From positions 4,854 through 31,416 of IMG/VR virus record IMGVR_UViG_3300037963_001078: a stretch of 26,563 nt of DNA. One strand, 5' to 3'. Made by a program: the position numbers and the translations under genes. This DNA is from a virus. The notes under the pieces are model-generated. The model saw only the letters and a program-made list of their open reading frames with translations. It made no database searches and was not told the origin of the DNA. Below, in pieces: positions 4,793 through 19,653 of this stretch (the first letter of the stretch is position 1; each line of letters begins with the position of its first letter).

Positions 4793-7099
4793 ATGACTAG
4801 GGCTGTTACTATCCAAACTAACTTTACAACAGGCGAGATTGATCCGTTGTTAGCTTCAAGGATTGATATAGGTCAATATTACAATGGTCTAGACAAAGCT
4901 AGAAATGTCACGATCCAACCACAAGGTGGGGTGGAAAGAAGGCAAGGGTTACAATTCATCAAACAAATAGATAGTGGTGGTTCACCAGAGAATGGTACAA
5001 GGCTGATACCTTTTGAGTTTTCCACTACGCAAAGTTATATGCTTTTATTTGTAAACAACAGAATGTATGTATACAAAGACAAGGCTCTGGTCACAAATAT
5101 TAATGGTAGTGGCAACGATTATCTAACGACAGCAATTGGATCTGCACAATTATCCACACTAGATTTTGCACAGTCTTTTGATACATTAGTTCTTGTTCAT
5201 GAGGACTTGACTCCTTTCAAGCTAGTGAGAGGTGGCAACGACAGCACTTGGACTATATCAGCAATAAGTTTTGAACACGTTCCTTTTCATGCTTTTACAA
5301 CATCAACTACAGAGCCATCCACAACTGTTACCCCATCGGCAGTAGATGGTAGTATTACTATTACAGCAGGTTCATCTATCTTTGATGCTAATAGTGTCAA
5401 CCAATACATAGAGGTAAAGGATGGTCTAGGCAGGGCAAGGATTGTAAAACTAAACTCTGGCACAGTTGTTGAGGCTATAGTAGAGATACCATTCTTTGAT
5501 ACCAACGCCATAGCTAGTGGTGATTATGTAGTTGAGTCTGGTTATGAAGTTACTTGGTCTGGCACTAGGGGCTACCCAAGGACAGCTACATTCCATGAGG
5601 GTAGATTGTATCTAGGTGGTACTAAGTCAAGACCAAACACATTGTTTGGTTCAAGGGTGGCTAGGTTCTTTGACTTCAATCCAGGCGAAGGACTAGATGA
5701 TGACTCAATCGAAGCAACCTTAGATACGGACTCTGTCAATGCTATCATAGGACTGTTTAGTGGTAGAGACTTACAGATCTTTACTAAGGGTGGTGAGTTC
5801 TTTGTACCTCAGTCATCTCTTGACCCTATTACACCTAGCAACATTGTAATCAATGGTTCGACAAGAAGGGGTGCTAAAGAAGGCATCAAGCCTGTAGGTG
5901 TAGAAAGTGGTACATTGTTTATACAAAGAAGTGGCAAAGCTGTCAGAGAGTTTTCTTTTAGTGATACTGAGCTTTCTTATGTGTCAGCTAACGTATCATT
6001 ACTATCTTCACATTTACTAAATACACCATTAGACATGGCTTTGAGAAAAGCCACTTCCACAACTGAAGGCGATATGCTTATGATAGTCAATACTGATGGA
6101 ACTCTAGTCATGTACTCTATTCTAAGAGATCAAAATATTACAGCACCATCACTAGCAAGCACAGGTCCAGATGTTGCAACCATAACAGTATCAGACTATG
6201 CAAACATAGCTGTAGGTACAGAGCTTACATTTACAGATAACAATGGCACAGTCATTACGTTACAGTCAGAGGCAGTAGGTAGTTCAGATCCATCATCTGC
6301 ATCTGGCAACACACACTTCTTTAGACCAAACTCATCTAACAATACAACAGCAGATAACCTCTTTACTGCCTTTGGTAACATCAGTCAGTTTGTAGTGAAG
6401 AACCCAGCAGCAGCAGTCGTAACAGTCAAGCGTGTGGTTCCAGGAGACGACAACTTAACAGTAACCACAACTGACAGCACAAGACTAACTGTTACAAACT
6501 TTGCCAAAACAGATAAGTTTTTGAATGTAGCTGTAGATGTAGAGACTGTTTACTGTGTGGTCAAGCGTTCTATCAATGGTTCAGATGTTTACTATGTAGA
6601 GGCTTTCAATGATGATAACACAACAGATAGCGCCATACTTTTTACAGGTGGAACATTACCAGGTAGCACATCTCTAAGTGGCTTGTCGCACCTTGAGGGA
6701 GAAACAGTCAAGGTCATAGTTGATGATGCAATGCAAGCAAACAAAGTGGTATCTTCTGGTGCTATAACATTAGATGCAGTACCAACATCTTATGTGGAGG
6801 TAGGATTGGATTATACACCGAAAGTAAAGACTTTGCCTGTAGAATTAAAACTTCCAAGTGGTAACATTGTAGCGCAGAAAAAAAGGATTGTAGAGACTAC
6901 GGCAAATCTGTATCTTTCACAAAATCTAACAGTCAATGGTAATGATCTAGCTTTTACAGCTGCAACATTTTTTACTGGTAAGAAAAGAAGAAAGCCAATG
7001 CTAGGGTATGATCGCAATGGACAGATTACATTTTCACAATCCCAGCCATTATTTTTTAATTTATTAGGTATTGAGTATAAGGTAAGTGTAGGTCAATAA
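4793..7099 (+). CDS. Tail tubular protein B (T7 gp12-like nozzle)
   Basis: 768 residues, close to T7 gp12 (794). It forms the hexameric nozzle of the short tail. The N-terminus has the family pattern: FTTGEIDPLLASRID, then YYNGLDKARNVTIQPQGG and VERRQGLQFI. A later block, RGYPRTATFHEGRLYLGG followed by RPNTLFGSR, is also characteristic. The remainder is beta-rich and repetitive, as expected for the nozzle's propeller-like platform. The start codon is supported by GAGGTAATGGC upstream. The stop overlaps the next start by a single base (TAATG at 7097-7101), giving coupled translation with the first internal virion gene. Confidence 0.93.
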   Translation: MTRAVTIQTNFTTGEIDPLLASRIDIGQYYNGLDKARNVTIQPQGGVERRQGLQFIKQIDSGGSPENGTRLIPFEFSTTQSYMLLFVNNRMYVYKDKALVTNINGSGNDYLTTAIGSAQLSTLDFAQSFDTLVLVHEDLTPFKLVRGGNDSTWTISAISFEHVPFHAFTTSTTEPSTTVTPSAVDGSITITAGSSIFDANSVNQYIEVKDGLGRARIVKLNSGTVVEAIVEIPFFDTNAIASGDYVVESGYEVTWSGTRGYPRTATFHEGRLYLGGTKSRPNTLFGSRVARFFDFNPGEGLDDDSIEATLDTDSVNAIIGLFSGRDLQIFTKGGEFFVPQSSLDPITPSNIVINGSTRRGAKEGIKPVGVESGTLFIQRSGKAVREFSFSDTELSYVSANVSLLSSHLLNTPLDMALRKATSTTEGDMLMIVNTDGTLVMYSILRDQNITAPSLASTGPDVATITVSDYANIAVGTELTFTDNNGTVITLQSEAVGSSDPSSASGNTHFFRPNSSNNTTADNLFTAFGNISQFVVKNPAAAVVTVKRVVPGDDNLTVTTTDSTRLTVTNFAKTDKFLNVAVDVETVYCVVKRSINGSDVYYVEAFNDDNTTDSAILFTGGTLPGSTSLSGLSHLEGETVKVIVDDAMQANKVVSSGAITLDAVPTSYVEVGLDYTPKVKTLPVELKLPSGNIVAQKKRIVETTANLYLSQNLTVNGNDLAFTAATFFTGKKRRKPMLGYDRNGQITFSQSQPLFFNLLGIEYKVSVGQ

Positions 7100-14080: not shown

Positions 14081-16711
14081 ATGGCAAGTTTTGACATAAA
14101 TGAAGTAGCAAGAAGAGTACAGTCTACATCGACTGGACAAGATGGACCATACACATTTAACTTCCAAGTCAATGCAGCAAGTGAGATACAAGTATTTAGA
14201 AACGACACACTACAGACAGAAAGCACACACTATAATACAACTCTCAATGCAGATGGCACAGGCTCTATCACATTCATAGATACCTCTGGGAGTGGTGGGA
14301 CAGACCACAGCCCAACAAGTGGCGATGTCATTACTATCATAGGAGACCAGCCACTATCAAGAACCACAGTCTTTTCTACAGGTTCTGTCAATCAACCAGC
14401 TACACTAGAGACAGAGTTTGACAACGTAGTCATAAGACAACAACAGCTCAAAGAGATGATGGATAGGTCCATACAACTCAAAGCATCAACAAGACGTACA
14501 GTTACAGGCACAGGTACTTCTGGTCCACTACAGTTCCCTTATGATGATACAGCCTCGAACAATGCAAGTAAGGTTATAGCTTACGACAGCAATGGTACAT
14601 CACTAGAGCTTGGACCAACAACAGCCAACCTAACGACACTAGCAGGTATTGCAAGTGATATAAGTACAGTCGCAGGTATCTCAAGCAATGTTACAAGTGT
14701 CGCAGGTAATGCAACCAACATCAATACTGTAGCTGGTATCTCAAGCAACATCACAACAGTTGCAGGGATATCAAGTAACGTAACCACAGTAGCAGGTATC
14801 AGTTCTGCTGTATCTACAGTAGCCTCTGCAAACTCAAACATATCTACAGTCGCTAGTGCTATCTCAAATGTAAACACAGTTGCTGGTAGCATATCAAATG
14901 TAAACACGACAGCAGGTAGTATCTCAAACGTCAATACAGTTGCAGGTTCTATATCTAACGTCAACACAGTCGCATCAAATGTAACTGGGGTAAACAGCTT
15001 TGCAGAAAGATACAGGGTGGGTAGCTCAGACCCTAGCTCTGATAATGACGCAGGAGACCTGTTCTTCAACACCACAAGCAACACACTCAAGTTCTACGAT
15101 GGTAGCTCTTTCAACGCCATTACCTCTGGTATAGCCGATGATGAAGTAACAACAGCTAAGATAGCTGATAGTGCTGTAACCACAGCAAAGATAGCAGATA
15201 CTGCTGTAAGCACAGCGAAGATTGCAGACAATGCTGTAACTACAGCCAAGATAAATGCAGATGCAATCACAGGTGCTAAGATAGCAGATGATGCTATAGA
15301 CTCAGAACACTACACAGATGGCTCTATTGACACAGCACACATAGCAGATAACCAAATAACAAATGCCAAGATGGCAGATGATAGTGTGGGTTCAGCAGAG
15401 CTGATTGACAACTCAGTTGGGGCAGCAGCACTCAACATATCTGGCAATGGCTCAAGTGGGCAGATGATTGTGTCTGATGCAGATGGTTCGTTCTCCTATG
15501 CAGACCAACCAAGTGGTGGTGGATTTAGTTTGGCATCAGCATTGTCTGGTACAACACCTACTATCAACTGGTCTAGTGCCACAGCTTTTAGCCACACTCT
15601 TTCTGGCGATACAACCTACAGCTTTTCTAATGTGCCAAGTGGAGGAGAGATAGAATTGTTCTTGAAAAATGTAGGTAAGACTATGGATGTGCTTACTTTC
15701 AATGCGTCAACAGATTTGAATGCGACTAGCACCCTATCTACTGGTGGTAGTTTTGGCTCTTGGTTTAACAATGATGGCAGTCGTTGGTATACAACTGATA
15801 ACACTACTAATAACCCAATACATGAATTTAATCTTAGCACCAACTACGATATATCAACAGCTAGTTTTTCACGTTCCTCATCTGGTAGTATGCCAAATAC
15901 ATTACGTTACTCTTGTGAGTTCAATGGGGATGGCACGAAGTTGATTGGCTATAAGGCAGACCTAGTAGAACATACCCTTTCTACTGCATATGATATCAGC
16001 AGTTTATCTACATCTACCAATCATACAATAGATGTTGATGCACTATTCCAATCTAGTGGTGGTGGCGATAGTGTTACAGGTTTTGGTGGTGGCACTATCA
16101 GATTTAACAATGATGGTACACGATTGTTTATATCACATAGAGATACAGATGATATTGAAGTGCCAAGAGCAATAGTTGTAAAACTATCTACAGCTTACGA
16201 TATTGATAGCACACTTACTGTAGAGAGTGAATGGTTTGCACAGCCACATAAAGATGGTCTTGGTACGAGTGGCTCAAAGATTACTTCTGTTATGTCTTAT
16301 GATGGCACAACAATAGTTTGTGCAGAGCATAATGACCAAGCAGGTGAAACTGGTCATGCAGTATTTTGGCATTATAATTTAAGTGTCCCATGGGACTTAT
16401 CTAGTACACGTTTCGTAGGTAGTGTAAAGCAAGACCTCAATGCCTCGGCAGCAACTGGTATTGAAAATTTACACATTACCCCAGATAATAAATTTATGTA
16501 TTTTACAGAGTTTAAAGTATCAACTTCAGACAATGGTTACTTCCAAGTTTTTGATATACAAGGAGATTACAAAGTTACTTTGCCAAGTGGTGTTACAACA
16601 TTACCAGCATCATTTGGTGATGGCGAGGACCCAACTACAACTAGCTATCTAAGATTAGTCAGCCTAGATGGTAGTAACGTTCTGATAACTGACCATAAGG
16701 AGATACTATAA
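14081..16711 (+). CDS. Tail fibre with T7 gp17-like N-terminus, decapeptide repeats and a C-terminal beta-propeller-like region
   Basis: 876 residues. Residues 1-150 match the T7 tail fibre N-terminal domain (EVARRVQSTSTGQDGPYTF, a beta sandwich, then DNVVIRQQQLKEMMDRSIQ), which attaches the fibre to the tail. Twelve 10-residue repeats of the VAGISSNVxT type occupy residues 187-306. A fibre motif with DAGDLFFNTTSNTLKFYDGS follows, then ten units of the IADxAVTTAK type at residues 351-450. After residue ~480 a beta domain begins (TINWSSATAFSHTLSGDTTY). It is interrupted by a region of five visible DG-type blades (FNNDGSRW, FNGDGTKL, FNNDGTRL, YDGTTIV, TPDNKFMYF), spaced 52-65 residues and linked by LSTAYDIS turns. 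The C-terminus (YKVTLPSGVTTLP) resumes the beta domain. The distal part probably binds the host receptor. The stop overlaps the next start (TAATG). Confidence 0.9.
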   Translation: MASFDINEVARRVQSTSTGQDGPYTFNFQVNAASEIQVFRNDTLQTESTHYNTTLNADGTGSITFIDTSGSGGTDHSPTSGDVITIIGDQPLSRTTVFSTGSVNQPATLETEFDNVVIRQQQLKEMMDRSIQLKASTRRTVTGTGTSGPLQFPYDDTASNNASKVIAYDSNGTSLELGPTTANLTTLAGIASDISTVAGISSNVTSVAGNATNINTVAGISSNITTVAGISSNVTTVAGISSAVSTVASANSNISTVASAISNVNTVAGSISNVNTTAGSISNVNTVAGSISNVNTVASNVTGVNSFAERYRVGSSDPSSDNDAGDLFFNTTSNTLKFYDGSSFNAITSGIADDEVTTAKIADSAVTTAKIADTAVSTAKIADNAVTTAKINADAITGAKIADDAIDSEHYTDGSIDTAHIADNQITNAKMADDSVGSAELIDNSVGAAALNISGNGSSGQMIVSDADGSFSYADQPSGGGFSLASALSGTTPTINWSSATAFSHTLSGDTTYSFSNVPSGGEIELFLKNVGKTMDVLTFNASTDLNATSTLSTGGSFGSWFNNDGSRWYTTDNTTNNPIHEFNLSTNYDISTASFSRSSSGSMPNTLRYSCEFNGDGTKLIGYKADLVEHTLSTAYDISSLSTSTNHTIDVDALFQSSGGGDSVTGFGGGTIRFNNDGTRLFISHRDTDDIEVPRAIVVKLSTAYDIDSTLTVESEWFAQPHKDGLGTSGSKITSVMSYDGTTIVCAEHNDQAGETGHAVFWHYNLSVPWDLSSTRFVGSVKQDLNASAATGIENLHITPDNKFMYFTEFKVSTSDNGYFQVFDIQGDYKVTLPSGVTTLPASFGDGEDPTTTSYLRLVSLDGSNVLITDHKEIL
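14639..14998 (+). repeat. Twelve in-frame 30-bp repeats in the fibre shaft (VAGISSNVxT type)
   Basis: The coding DNA holds twelve consecutive 30-base units encoding LAGIASDIST, VAGISSNVTS, VAGNATNINT and so on to VASNVTGVNS. The most alike units are VAGSISNVNT (three near-identical copies with synonymous changes). The exact 10-residue period suggests a fibrous trimeric shaft. The units differ at synonymous sites, so the array is not a recent expansion. Confidence 0.85.
15131..15430 (+). repeat. Ten in-frame 30-bp repeats in the fibre (IADxAVTTAK type)
   Basis: A second array of ten 10-residue units runs from IADDEVTTAK through IADSAVTTAK, IADTAVSTAK and IADNAVTTAK to a degenerate LIDNSVGAAA. 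It has the same 30-base period as the first array but an unrelated consensus. Similar AKIADxAVTT repeats are common in phage fibres and are thought to form a trimeric stalk. Confidence 0.85.
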
Positions 16712-16911
16712 TGGCAGACAGTAGACCATCAATGAAAAGTATAAGTGAGAAGTTGGACCATATGCACTCCGATATCGAGAAGAACTCAGCAGACATACAC
16801 AAGCTACAACTAGAGATGTCCTATGGTCGTGGTGCTGTCAAGTCAGTTGCATGGATAGGTGGCTGTGTGGCTGTCATTGTAGGTCTTATGAGAATATTTA
16901 ACGGAGGATAA
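16711..16911 (+). CDS. Small coiled-coil protein with C-terminal membrane segment (XhlA-like shape)
   Basis: 66 residues. The N-terminal half is a charged helical coil (ISEKLDHMHSDIEKNSADIH). One hydrophobic segment follows (VAWIGGCVAVIVGLMRIF, about residues 45-62), and the protein ends with a few residues. This topology matches small XhlA-type or holin-accessory membrane proteins. It sits between the tail fibre and a holin-like gene, which supports a lysis role, but no family-defining motif is visible. Start and upstream stop share one base (TAATG). The stop lies one base before the next ATG. Confidence 0.6.
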   Translation: MADSRPSMKSISEKLDHMHSDIEKNSADIHKLQLEMSYGRGAVKSVAWIGGCVAVIVGLMRIFNGG

Positions 16912-16912
16912 T

Positions 16913-17326
16913 ATGTTACCATTCTTAGGCTTTCTATCAAACCCAATCACAAAGCTAGTAGCTGACAAGGTTATAGGTGCAGCCACTCATGCTATGGAGA
17001 AGAAAAAAATTATACGACAGGCAGAGATAGAGGCTACAGCTAACATAGACTATGCCAAGATAGAGGCACAGAAAGCAGTACACAAAGCAGAACAAGCTGT
17101 ACTAAAGCAACAAGTCAAGTCTAGTGAGAAAAGCTGGAAGGATGAATATTTGTGTGTGGTATTTACGATCCTGCTGATTTGCCATTTCATAGAACCACTA
17201 CAGCCAAGCATGATGAAAGGATGGGAGATGTTGGGTACAGCTCCAAAAGAATTTTGGTATATCATAATGACTATTGTGGCAGGCAGCTTTGGCGTATCAA
17301 CATTAAGTAAATGGAAAGGCAAATGA
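16913..17326 (+). CDS. Holin-like membrane protein (GTA holin, 3TM family type)
   Basis: 137 residues. An N-terminal weakly hydrophobic segment is followed by an Ala-rich charged coil (residues 30-72, with EIEATANIDYAKIEAQKA). The signature SWKDEYLCVVFTILLICHFI comes next (about 74-93), then a second membrane segment with FWYIIMTIVAGSFGVSTLSKW (about 114-134). The SWKDEY start of the first helix and the GSFG-x-STL-x-KW end closely resemble the 3TM holin family described for gene transfer agent release, common in alphaproteobacterial phages. Holins form inner-membrane lesions that time lysis. The gene follows a small membrane protein and overlaps the next gene as ATGA. No endolysin is recognisable nearby. 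Confidence 0.75.
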   Translation: MLPFLGFLSNPITKLVADKVIGAATHAMEKKKIIRQAEIEATANIDYAKIEAQKAVHKAEQAVLKQQVKSSEKSWKDEYLCVVFTILLICHFIEPLQPSMMKGWEMLGTAPKEFWYIIMTIVAGSFGVSTLSKWKGK

Positions 17327-17955
17327 AACAATCAAGACTAGATAAGATACTATCGTACATTGCATGGGCAATAATAGTTATATGGATGCTTGTTATTATT
17401 ATTGTTCCTACAGAGGCAAACGAAAACACAAATGTCTCTGGAGACAACACGATTATCTCTGGTGGATACACAAGTTCCTCAAGTACAACGTATGAGTCTG
17501 GCAGTAGCTCCAATACTACTAGCACTAGCACCACTAACAACACGAGCAATATCAAAAGTTTTCCACCAACAGCCTCTGCCCCACCCACGGGAGCAGGCAT
17601 TGATACTTGTAATCTTGGCACTTCGTTTGGATTGCAAAGCAGTTTCATTGGATTGTCTGGCAGTAGCCATGAGACAGACGAGACCTGTGAACGTATCAAA
17701 CTAGCAAGAGAGCTATCAACAGTACACCAGATGAAGGTGGCAGGGATTGCTATACTGTGTCAAGATCCTAGAGTATTTACAGCTATGATGGAGGCAGGAA
17801 CACCTTGCCCATTTGAAGGTCAGATAGGACCTGATGCTGAGAGACTCTGGGCAAAGTATGATGAGCTAAGACCAGACTACGAAGAACACAAAGAAAGAAT
17901 GAAAACAAAAGAGAAGATACAAGCTGAACAAGTTATGTATAGTACTGGCAAATGA
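17323..17955 (+). CDS. Exported or membrane-anchored protein of unknown function with Ser/Thr linker and four cysteines
   Basis: I prefer the start at 17323 (MKQSRLDKI), which overlaps the holin stop as ATGA and has AAAGG upstream; an in-frame ATG at 17311 would add four residues. The product has 210 residues. An N-terminal hydrophobic segment (YIAWAIIVIWMLVIIIVP) acts as signal or anchor. A Ser/Thr/Asn-rich low-complexity stretch of about 40 residues follows, then a compact domain with ASAPPTGAGIDTCNLG, SSHETDETCERIKLARE, ILCQDPRVF and GTPCPFEGQIG. The four Cys are spaced as expected for two periplasmic disulfides. I recall similar proteins in marine phages, always without function. The C-terminal tail is charged and helical. 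Its place after the holin suggests an envelope-related role. Confidence 0.7.
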   Translation: MKQSRLDKILSYIAWAIIVIWMLVIIIVPTEANENTNVSGDNTIISGGYTSSSSTTYESGSSSNTTSTSTTNNTSNIKSFPPTASAPPTGAGIDTCNLGTSFGLQSSFIGLSGSSHETDETCERIKLARELSTVHQMKVAGIAILCQDPRVFTAMMEAGTPCPFEGQIGPDAERLWAKYDELRPDYEEHKERMKTKEKIQAEQVMYSTGK

Positions 17956-19160
17956 GATGCTTGGTATACTTATTCCTTATCTTATCTGTGGTAGTACTTG
18001 CAAGTGCAAAGACAAGTGCAGACTCAACAGGTAACTTACTATCCAATAACTTTCAACAAGATTGGACTGGCACCAATGATCACTATCATGGACCTACCAT
18101 ACTAGCTGGGGTACACAACGAGTACAGAGAAACAACTACTACCCTGTCTGACCACATGGACTCCATAGAGATACAAGGTATAACAGCTAGTGAGTTTACT
18201 GCTGATATCTGGATATGGAATAGCTACCCTCAATCAGTTGACATGACACAGGAAATCACAGATAGTAATGGCGTGGAGTATAGCAATACCATAACCATAT
18301 CTGGAACCTGTAATAGTTGGAATGGCTGTGGCTATGAGGCATCTCCAAGTAATACAATTTACATAACAGATGTGGCAGATGATTATGATATTATTACTCG
18401 TTTCAGCTTTAGCGTACCTAGTCGCCCTAATTACCATTATGCAGCAGACGTCAAGGATCCCTCCCTCGTTATACATTTTGATCCATACACCTTGGATATT
18501 GCAACAACACAAGACGTTGAGGACTGGCTCCAAGAGTTTGAAGAAGAATACATAGATATATTTGAGGAGCAAGAGCTGTTCTTGATAGACGAGCCAGACC
18601 CTTTTGTTGAAGAGTTCTTGATGTATGAACCAGAGGTCTATGATTTCTTTGAAGAGATAGAATACTACGAGCCAGAGATAGAAGAGCTACCAGAAGAAAT
18701 CATAGAAGAGATGCCAGAGGAAGTTATAGAAGATATGCCAGAAGAGATTATAGAAGAAGAGATTATAGAAGATCTACCAGAAGAGATAGTAGAAGAACAG
18801 CCAGAGGAGATTAGTGAAGAGCCTAGCATGCAAGAAGAGCCAGAAGAGATAGACGCAGGTGGCCCAGAGCAGGGTGATATAATGATAGGCAAAACAGTAT
18901 TTGCACAAGCGATAGAGGTAGACAAAGTTACACTTAGTATTATGTTACAGGAGCAACCTATAATGCAAGACGCTAATTTTTATGCACCAATAAATATTTA
19001 TCCAGATCAAATTACAATCTTTGACGACAGACAAATATATGGTAATATTAGCTATGTCGCTAATGATCCAGTAACTGTGCATAATAATTTAATTGTAGGG
19101 AATTTAGAGCGGCAACAAGAATTAATACAAAAATTAGAAAGTATGCAATGGAGAAACTAA
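17952..19160 (+). CDS. Secreted acidic repeat protein of unknown function
   Basis: 402 residues. A clear cleavable signal peptide (CLVYLFLILSVVVLASA) is followed by a beta-rich N-terminal domain (about residues 25-170). This domain contains NNFQQDWTGTNDHYHGPTI and a Cys pair (SGTCNSWNGCGYEAS). Residues ~185-310 are extremely acidic, with Glu/Pro/Ile units of the type PEEIIEEMPEE repeated irregularly, and probably form an extended stalk. The C-terminal ~90 residues return to mixed composition and end in a short coil (LERQQELIQKLESMQ). There is no lipobox Cys and no transmembrane segment besides the signal. The architecture suggests an exported two-domain protein with an acidic spacer. The gene overlaps both neighbours (ATGA at the start, 13 bases at the end). 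Confidence 0.65.
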   Translation: MRCLVYLFLILSVVVLASAKTSADSTGNLLSNNFQQDWTGTNDHYHGPTILAGVHNEYRETTTTLSDHMDSIEIQGITASEFTADIWIWNSYPQSVDMTQEITDSNGVEYSNTITISGTCNSWNGCGYEASPSNTIYITDVADDYDIITRFSFSVPSRPNYHYAADVKDPSLVIHFDPYTLDIATTQDVEDWLQEFEEEYIDIFEEQELFLIDEPDPFVEEFLMYEPEVYDFFEEIEYYEPEIEELPEEIIEEMPEEVIEDMPEEIIEEEIIEDLPEEIVEEQPEEISEEPSMQEEPEEIDAGGPEQGDIMIGKTVFAQAIEVDKVTLSIMLQEQPIMQDANFYAPINIYPDQITIFDDRQIYGNISYVANDPVTVHNNLIVGNLERQQELIQKLESMQWRN

Positions 19161-19501
19161 AAAATAATCTAGCTGGTATAGTTAGTCTAATCGGTGTAGT
19201 GGGTGCAATAGGAGCAGGATTTACTACCTATGGCAAATTACTTGGTAGTATATCTACGCTAGAAGAAAAAGTATCAGACCTTGAATCAAAGCAATATGTA
19301 ATAAATGAAACAGTAGATCTAACTGATACAAATAACAAGATAAACGACAATTATGTAGCTGTTACAGATCGTATTACAGAATTACAAAATGACCTAAATG
19401 CGTCTGCAAACAATCTAGGTATATTAGAAACTAGAATAGACTTAATGCAAACACAAATAGAAGAGATGAAATTAGAAAACAGCAATCCAATGATGAGATA
19501 G
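19148..19501 (+). CDS. Membrane-anchored coiled-coil protein, i-spanin-like in shape
   Basis: 117 residues. A short basic-amphipathic start precedes a membrane segment (residues ~9-28, LAGIVSLIGVVGAIGAGF). The rest is a periplasmic coil with heptad-like spacing: ISTLEEKVSDLESKQ, then ITELQNDLNASANNLG and LMQTQIEEMKLE. N-terminal anchor plus coiled-coil is the layout of inner-membrane spanin subunits, which connect to an outer-membrane lipoprotein in the last lysis step. No o-spanin lipoprotein is visible next to it, so the call is by topology only. A structural or chaperone role for the adjacent secreted protein is an alternative. It overlaps the previous gene by 13 bases. Confidence 0.5.
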   Translation: MEKLKNNLAGIVSLIGVVGAIGAGFTTYGKLLGSISTLEEKVSDLESKQYVINETVDLTDTNNKINDNYVAVTDRITELQNDLNASANNLGILETRIDLMQTQIEEMKLENSNPMMR

Positions 19502-19509
19502 GAGAAAAA

Positions 19510-19653
19510 ATGTTAGAAAAACTAAAAGAAATCGCCCATAAATTGCCATACAGCCACGTTTGGTACGATAAATGTGCTTGTGGTTACAAAAAACACAAAC
19601 GCGCTGTGTGGGTTGCTCTGGCTGTTCTAGGACTAATTCTATTTTTAGCGTAG
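19510..19653 (+). CDS. 47-residue tail-anchored peptide with CxC motif
   Basis: A short frame begins at ATG 19510 behind AGGAGAAAAA (a good ribosome binding site) and ends at TAG 19651-19653. The product starts MLEKLKEIAHKLPYSHVW. It has a small Cys/basic centre (YDKCACGYKKHKR) and ends with one hydrophobic helix (AVWVALAVLGLILFLA). The spacing (eight bases after the previous stop, four before the next start) fits the operon. It looks like a phage membrane peptide, possibly related to lysis or host-membrane modification; the function is unknown. Confidence 0.65.
   Translation: MLEKLKEIAHKLPYSHVWYDKCACGYKKHKRAVWVALAVLGLILFLA

Follow-up and report, generated by a model that had tools for sequence, protein, structure and literature searches.

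The window analysed here, a 26,563-nucleotide stretch of IMG/VR virus record IMGVR_UViG_3300037963_001078 (positions 4,854 to 31,416), corresponds to the late half of the genome of a T7-like marine phage, with portal, capsid, tail tube, internal virion protein and tail fibre genes, and contains three consecutive, overlapping genes, A, B and C, all of which code for exported proteins. A-B-C is a real, conserved cassette, and we tentatively propose that its products act as a late trans-envelope complex that would do the job of a spanin without belonging to the spanin family. Pelagiphages rank among the most numerous viruses on Earth and SAR11 are the ocean's most abundant bacteria; most phages bearing the cassette infect SAR11, and the cassette may bear on how pelagiphages breach the SAR11 outer membrane. 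An earlier note on this DNA had placed three overlapping genes at 17323-19501, and their coordinates, lengths and overlaps are correct. The genes and their junctions are as follows:

17323..17955, + strand: gene A, exported protein of 210 amino acids (aa) with four invariant Cys (translation; alignment of 87 homologues)
17952..17955, + strand: A/B start-stop overlap, ATGA (sequence)
17952..19160, + strand: gene B, exported 402-aa protein, with a Sec signal in the window (translation)
19148..19160, + strand: B/C overlap of 13 bases (sequence; B and C overlap in 66 of 81 loci)
19148..19501, + strand: gene C, 117-aa protein with an N-terminal transmembrane segment and a coiled coil (translation; alignment)

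The A-B-C order, mostly with overlaps, is repeated in more than 70 contigs and the arrangement is therefore not due to chance. At least 597 relatives of A are present in IMG/VR, and among the loci that we kept from this database, B was found in all those reaching at least 1 kilobase (kb) past A and C in all those reaching at least 2 kb, the order being fixed wherever there is enough downstream sequence. Pairwise distances of the three proteins are correlated (Mantel r of 0.71 for A-C, 0.50 for A-B and 0.43 for B-C, against null maxima of about 0.1, or 0.12 for A-C), and the set has therefore been inherited together. The co-conservation, overlapping genes and correlated divergence strongly support the earlier suggestion of a co-made exported set.

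Of the 11 phage records that tblastn retrieved with A, six are from cultured pelagiphages, two from roseophages, two from Manatee Spring phages and one from an uncultured Mediterranean phage. The A-B-C order is held in the pelagiphages and the uncultured Mediterranean phage; the Roseobacter phages keep A and C, with B replaced by a different secreted protein. Cultured carriers include HTVC023P, HTVC033P, HTVC202P, HTVC115P, Baldr and Mosig, and the carriers belong to unrelated genome types, namely an autographivirus (S28-C10), podoviruses, a Kyanoviridae myovirus (Mosig) and a tape-measure phage (HTVC202P). The occurrence of the cassette in unrelated phage types that share one host is as expected of an envelope function and, together with the clear architecture and the cultured representatives, makes the question directly testable. 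When 84,980 prokaryote genomes were searched with A, 12 matches were obtained, and SAR11 genomes were not among them. Capsid, tail, lysozyme or T4-like genes accompany the match on several of the contigs, which we read as viral sequence in metagenome-assembled genome bins, rejecting a cellular origin.

Pfam, PHROG, NCBIfam, PADLOC and PDB-sequence searches gave no match that explains A, B or C, and no description of the cassette was found in the literature searched, in agreement with the earlier view that the composition matches no known phage system. GenBank labels the genes hypothetical or, apparently wrongly, lysozyme (C in CRP-207, L008:3292-3873, and in CRP-810, L010:7162-7584), OmpA family (A in CRP-810, L010:5776-6531) or TonB (the middle gene of a Manatee Spring phage, L007:6227-7333); two entries name B a putative carbohydrate-binding protein. 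A role in release would give a function to three families annotated in this way.

Among the roles put forward earlier (lysis, superinfection exclusion and a surface appendage), lysis fits best because of the genomic position of the cassette, the inner-membrane spanin (i-spanin)-like topology of C and the alternation of the cassette with a unimolecular spanin (u-spanin) in one phage group; exclusion and surface functions are kept as a rival explanation below. With regard to position, HTVC202P and Baldr have the cassette immediately ahead of the terminase gene, and in S28-C10 it is enclosed by holin and terminase genes; spanins 18.5/18.7 of T7 occupy the same slot before the terminase. It is found beside a holin of the GTA (gene transfer agent) type in Mosig, an amidase and a holin-like gene in HTVC033P and a peptidase M15 in HTVC023P, and the A locus of a Manatee Spring phage lies beside a lysozyme. 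Among the closest neighbours in 24 loci are up to 11 endolysin-family and 9 holin-type (phrog_2524) proteins, although an endolysin is not always adjacent (exceptions being Baldr and HTVC202P).

The topology of C resembles that of an i-spanin, with one N-terminal hydrophobic segment followed by a leucine-patterned coiled coil of variable length, as anticipated by its earlier description as an anchored coiled-coil protein. Its most constant feature lies near the C terminus:

19484..19492, + strand: C-terminal motif NP(L/M) of C, here NPM (invariant in 78 of 78 distinct homologues)

This ending is kept in the roseophage and other divergent C proteins. Matches of C to coiled-coil families, to PADLOC models and to the Rz-like spanin phrog_739 (E=7e-4) were weak and were left unused as family evidence. 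In heptad shuffling, 17% of shuffles were as good as the C-terminal helix of B and 23% as good as C; since this indicates a tendency only, the pairing of B with C is something that we infer.

Gene B had been described as a secreted protein with a beta domain and a long Glu/Pro/Ile repeat, and both parts are recovered, the first as a high-confidence jelly roll and the second as a predicted disordered stretch:

18021..18491, + strand: jelly roll of carbohydrate-binding-module (CBM) type, B residues 24-180 (AlphaFold, predicted local distance difference test (pLDDT) about 85-98)
18570..18941, + strand: acidic Glu/Pro/Ile linker of B, disordered (D+E 37%, K+R 1%)
18978..19157, + strand: conserved C-terminal region of B, FYxPxxIYxxQxxIFDxRxIY, ending in a leucine-patterned helix

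Foldseek matched the jelly roll to the Fbs1 sugar-binding domain, CBM22, CBM6, CBM16 and CBM61 in the PDB (E between 1e-5 and 1e-3, best 1.2e-5), and Pfam CBM_4_9 was detected weakly in 3 of 68 B homologues (best E 6.5e-4). By its modelled fold the domain resembles CBM families, and it may bind a sugar. No strong structural match to spanins or fibres was obtained, carbohydrate-binding modules being the best matches of the B fold. Residues 207-370 have pLDDT values below 50 and are predicted to be disordered. The most conserved part of B is its C-terminal 60 residues, where Y363, Y368 and D372 are invariant and F343, Y344 and Q353 nearly so, and where AlphaFold places a helix at residues 373-397. 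A lipobox (LASC or LLSC) is present in 5 of 82 complete B homologues, and two further homologues, in loci L018 and L111, are also lipoprotein-like.

Jelly-roll domains are common in tail proteins, and in both the window and S28-C10 a tail-fibre gene lies nearby, which would suit A, B and C being virion or tail-associated structural proteins. We consider such an assignment very unlikely, as all three carry an export signal or a membrane anchor while tailed-phage virions assemble in the cytoplasm, and as the same cassette is found across phages of different tail types; the literature searched yielded no proteomics for these phages.

The start of A is taken at 17323, with an alternative ATG at 17311. 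The protein matches phrog_20531, a family of unknown function (E=4.2e-11), and it can be divided into three parts:

17422..17592, + strand: Ser/Thr/Asn/Gly-rich segment, A residues 34-90 (NxSGxNTxIxGGY...SGSSSNTT...PPTASAP; predicted disordered, pLDDT <50)
17608..17688, + strand: C96-C122 with an 18-residue uncharged, Gly-rich hydrophobic loop (alignment of 87)
17677..17880, + strand: C-terminal helical Cys domain of A (DxxCExIKLxxxL...MKVAxxxxLCQDxRVFxAM...GTPCP...G)

The Ser/Thr linker and the four Cys that had been pointed out before are borne out; the membrane anchor proposed with them is less likely than a cleaved Sec signal, which we favour because the homologues have ordinary cleavable signal peptides. 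There are exactly four Cys (C96, C122, C146 and C162), invariant in 87 of 87 homologues, and the disordered segment contains nearly invariant columns in the same 87 sequences (N37-Y49, G60-S61 and P81-P87). Columns 97-115 hold at most one charged residue, at the end of the segment, in all 87 homologues and are 30% Gly, so that the loop between C96 and C122 could possibly form a membrane-inserting hairpin. The AlphaFold model of A is of low confidence (predicted template modelling score 0.34) and has no PDB match, and for this reason membrane insertion stays at the level of what we infer from the alignment. Within the model, the helices at 120-178 reach pLDDT values of about 80-86, and invariant columns of this domain include D119, C122, E123, K126, M137, V139, C146, Q147, D148 and C162, among others. 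CRP-810 encodes, directly before A, an 86-aa lipoprotein paralogue of the helical domain, a similarity equalled in 0 of 500 shuffles. Matches of A to Pfam New_glue and YxzE and to an NCBIfam surface protein were rejected, being below cut-offs and driven by Ser/Thr composition. In the distant relatives L109 and L113 (L109:7260-8417 and L113:7332-8345), the Ser/Thr/Asn part is expanded to at least 200 residues, giving very long Asn/Thr/Ser-rich stretches of prion-like composition.

A and B could alternatively be displayed on the outside of the cell, tethered via C, and change or coat its surface so as to block superinfection or make cells stick. The carbohydrate-binding type of the B fold, the growth of the N-terminal part of A in L109 and L113 and the extra secreted proteins between A and C in the distant relatives L110 and L115 are all compatible with this idea. 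We nevertheless judge it unlikely: holin, endolysin and terminase genes, not early ones, accompany the cassette, searches against exclusion and defence families gave no match beyond chance, and display needs no membrane-anchored periplasmic coiled coil such as C.

We compared the cassette with known spanins, using the types and defining features summarised in PMC9636201. Like the two-component spanins (lambda Rz/Rz1, T7 gp18.5/18.7), it combines an N-terminal anchor and periplasmic coiled coil, the i-spanin layout seen in C, with overlapping genes (13 bases between B and C) and, as for T7 gp18.5/18.7, a position before the terminase large subunit. Unlike them, it consists of three proteins and has no small Pro-rich lipoprotein; B is a large exported partner in which a sugar-binding-type domain is combined with a long acidic linker, A is a separate Cys protein, and there is no significant sequence similarity, with weak coiled-coil matches at most. 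The three window proteins carry no outer-membrane spanin (o-spanin) lipobox, and the record yielded no credible small lipoprotein. As neither the window nor most homologues have the o-spanin lipoprotein, the cassette would not, judged by the defining features, be classed as a spanin, though it may work like one. The unimolecular spanins (T1 gp11; CRP-345 gp68 and the SIO1 relatives) share their phage group and genome area with the cassette; a u-spanin, however, is a single lipoprotein that has a membrane segment at its C terminus, and none of A, B and C combines the two features.

A scan for lipobox proteins, which recovered the T7 o-spanin and the SIO1 and CRP-345 u-spanins as controls, detected no credible lipoprotein spanin in HTVC202P, HTVC033P, HTVC115P, CRP-207, S28-C10 or the record of the window, nor in the first 60 of the 60.9 kb of HTVC023P. 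Counted over cassette-bearing genomes, six of eight gave no lipoprotein spanin. Within the HMO-2011 terminase group, u-spanins are present in CRP-345 (annotated spanin2), CRP-1 and CRP-9, which are without the cassette, and the A/C cassette is present in CRP-207, HTVC033P and HTVC115P. None of the HMO-2011-terminase phages examined has both, a count to be read in light of the control phages having been chosen for their spanins. A replacement by a spanin in HTVC103P, the nearest relative of HTVC115P, was considered and rejected, the cassette being simply missing there. The literature searched held no description of spanins for pelagiphages. Separately, in Chosvirus KM23-C739 (L135:20802-21257) a membrane coiled-coil gene and then a small lipoprotein gene follow the holin and resemble an unannotated Rz/Rz1 pair.

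Taken as a route to progeny release, the products of A-B-C would form a complex across the envelope of the Gram-negative host. C would sit in the inner membrane with its coiled coil reaching into the periplasm. B would be exported and probably located at the outer membrane or the envelope glycan through its carbohydrate-binding-type domain or, in some homologues, a lipid anchor, and its acidic linker would span the periplasm and let the C-terminal helix pair with C. A would be exported and disulphide-bonded, with an uncharged Gly-rich loop that may enter the outer membrane. Once holin and endolysin have acted, the whole assembly would link the outer membrane and disrupt it. Somewhat more doubtful is the broader proposal that the cassette represents a new trans-envelope release machine unrelated to spanins, in which an exported disulphide protein whose loop acts on membranes would join a sugar-binding tether across the periplasm and an inner-membrane NP(L/M) coiled coil; it would move between unrelated ocean phages, with the middle protein swapped to suit the envelope of each host.

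Several observations weigh against a spanin-like role. The lipoprotein, the defining feature of the o-spanin, is not found among A, B and C of the window; the roseophages do without B and have a different secreted protein in its place; and the carbohydrate-binding fold of B would suit adhesion or exclusion equally well. In Baldr, the cassette is on the other strand, far from holin and endolysin, and the early region has one unannotated 54-aa open reading frame with a lipobox. HMO-2011 and HTVC103P show neither the cassette nor a recognisable spanin in the stretches examined, so that loss of the cassette is not always compensated and the alternation with u-spanins is suggestive rather than proof. 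Finally, about 10 cassette loci also carry phrog_20984, a membrane coiled-coil protein and possible true i-spanin. A rival idea is that neighbouring small membrane proteins alone lyse the outer membrane and that A-B-C has another late envelope role, such as lysis delay, envelope stabilising or sensing. HTVC019P has phrog_20984 and a 69-72 aa exported protein in a genome without A-B-C, and the two also occur inside those roughly 10 A-B-C loci; the pair is absent from most cassette loci, the window included, and a separate late role appears improbable to us. In HTVC019P the two genes are gp54-gp55 (L121:5127-5701; phrog_20984 and phrog_24646), and the pair, a second candidate for outer-membrane lysis, recurs in pelagiphages with or without A-B-C.

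The curli (type VIII) secretion cluster of pelagiphages (Wittmers et al. 2022, PMC9599517; Zaragoza-Solas et al. 2020, PMC7029224; Melnitz, PMC9004378) is, like the cassette, an exported multi-gene module found across SAR11 phage families, and for CsgGF of phage Melnitz a lysis-timing role has also been proposed (PMC9004378). That A-B-C could be a variant of it is suggested by its exported, repeat-like proteins in SAR11 phages and by the movement of the curli cluster between phage families (PMC9599517). The proteins and genes differ, however, and no curlin, CsgG or CsgF match was obtained in Pfam or PHROG at E<=1; the reported cluster comprises a histidine kinase and FecR besides CsgF-CsgG-CsgA/B, and curli genes are reported absent from cultured HTVC023P-type phages (PMC9599517), whereas A-B-C is present in HTVC023P. 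We therefore rejected a curli identity, which the family searches contradict, and see hardly any chance of a variant.

Several additional exported proteins separate A from C in L110 and L115. Of those in L110, three (165, 123 and 141 aa) are related to a trio of genes, pilin-like, chaperone-like and phrog_37374, which in Vibrio T5-like phages (pVp-1, Brizo) immediately precede the holin and endolysin genes and code for exported late proteins. The trio is located at L128:3139-4294 in pVp-1, at L110:2970-4245 and at L115:4971-6234, and its third gene is present in 180 Vibrio records. Its sharing links A/C-type loci to lysis regions; the Vibrio phages differ in that no A, B or C was recognised in them, and the pilin and chaperone labels were given by inspection only.

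The genes around the cassette in the window are as follows:

16711..16911, + strand: 66-aa protein with a coiled coil and a C-terminal transmembrane segment, XhlA-like (translation)
16913..17326, + strand: holin-like protein (phrog_2524, E=2.9e-23)
19510..19653, + strand: 47-aa protein with a C-terminal transmembrane segment, following C (translation; cluster of 7 loci)

The XhlA-like gene is an upstream neighbour from the lysis module, and a gene of the same kind precedes the holin in HTVC033P (L003) and S28-C10 (L009). The holin-like gene overlaps A by 4 bases and its product has relatives in 73 phage records; it matches GTA_holin_3TM (PF11351) weakly and below the cut-off (E=0.0067), and the gene preceding A in Mosig is above that cut-off. 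The 47-aa gene is confined to the closest relatives. Rfam and tRNA scans gave nothing.

The whole 60.6-kb IMG/VR record consists of two related phage genomes joined, with two terminases, two portals and two sets of capsid and tail genes, and looks like a chimera or concatenate rather than a single phage. Lysozyme (PF00959), peptidase M15 (PF08291) and amidase (PF01510) endolysins were not found anywhere in it, a result that carries no conclusion because the record is joined. The same record contains a second A gene and the start of a second B (L119:13199-14596), and the tail-fibre-like gene of the window (14081-16711) contains tandem repeats of the SNVNTVAGS(I) type.

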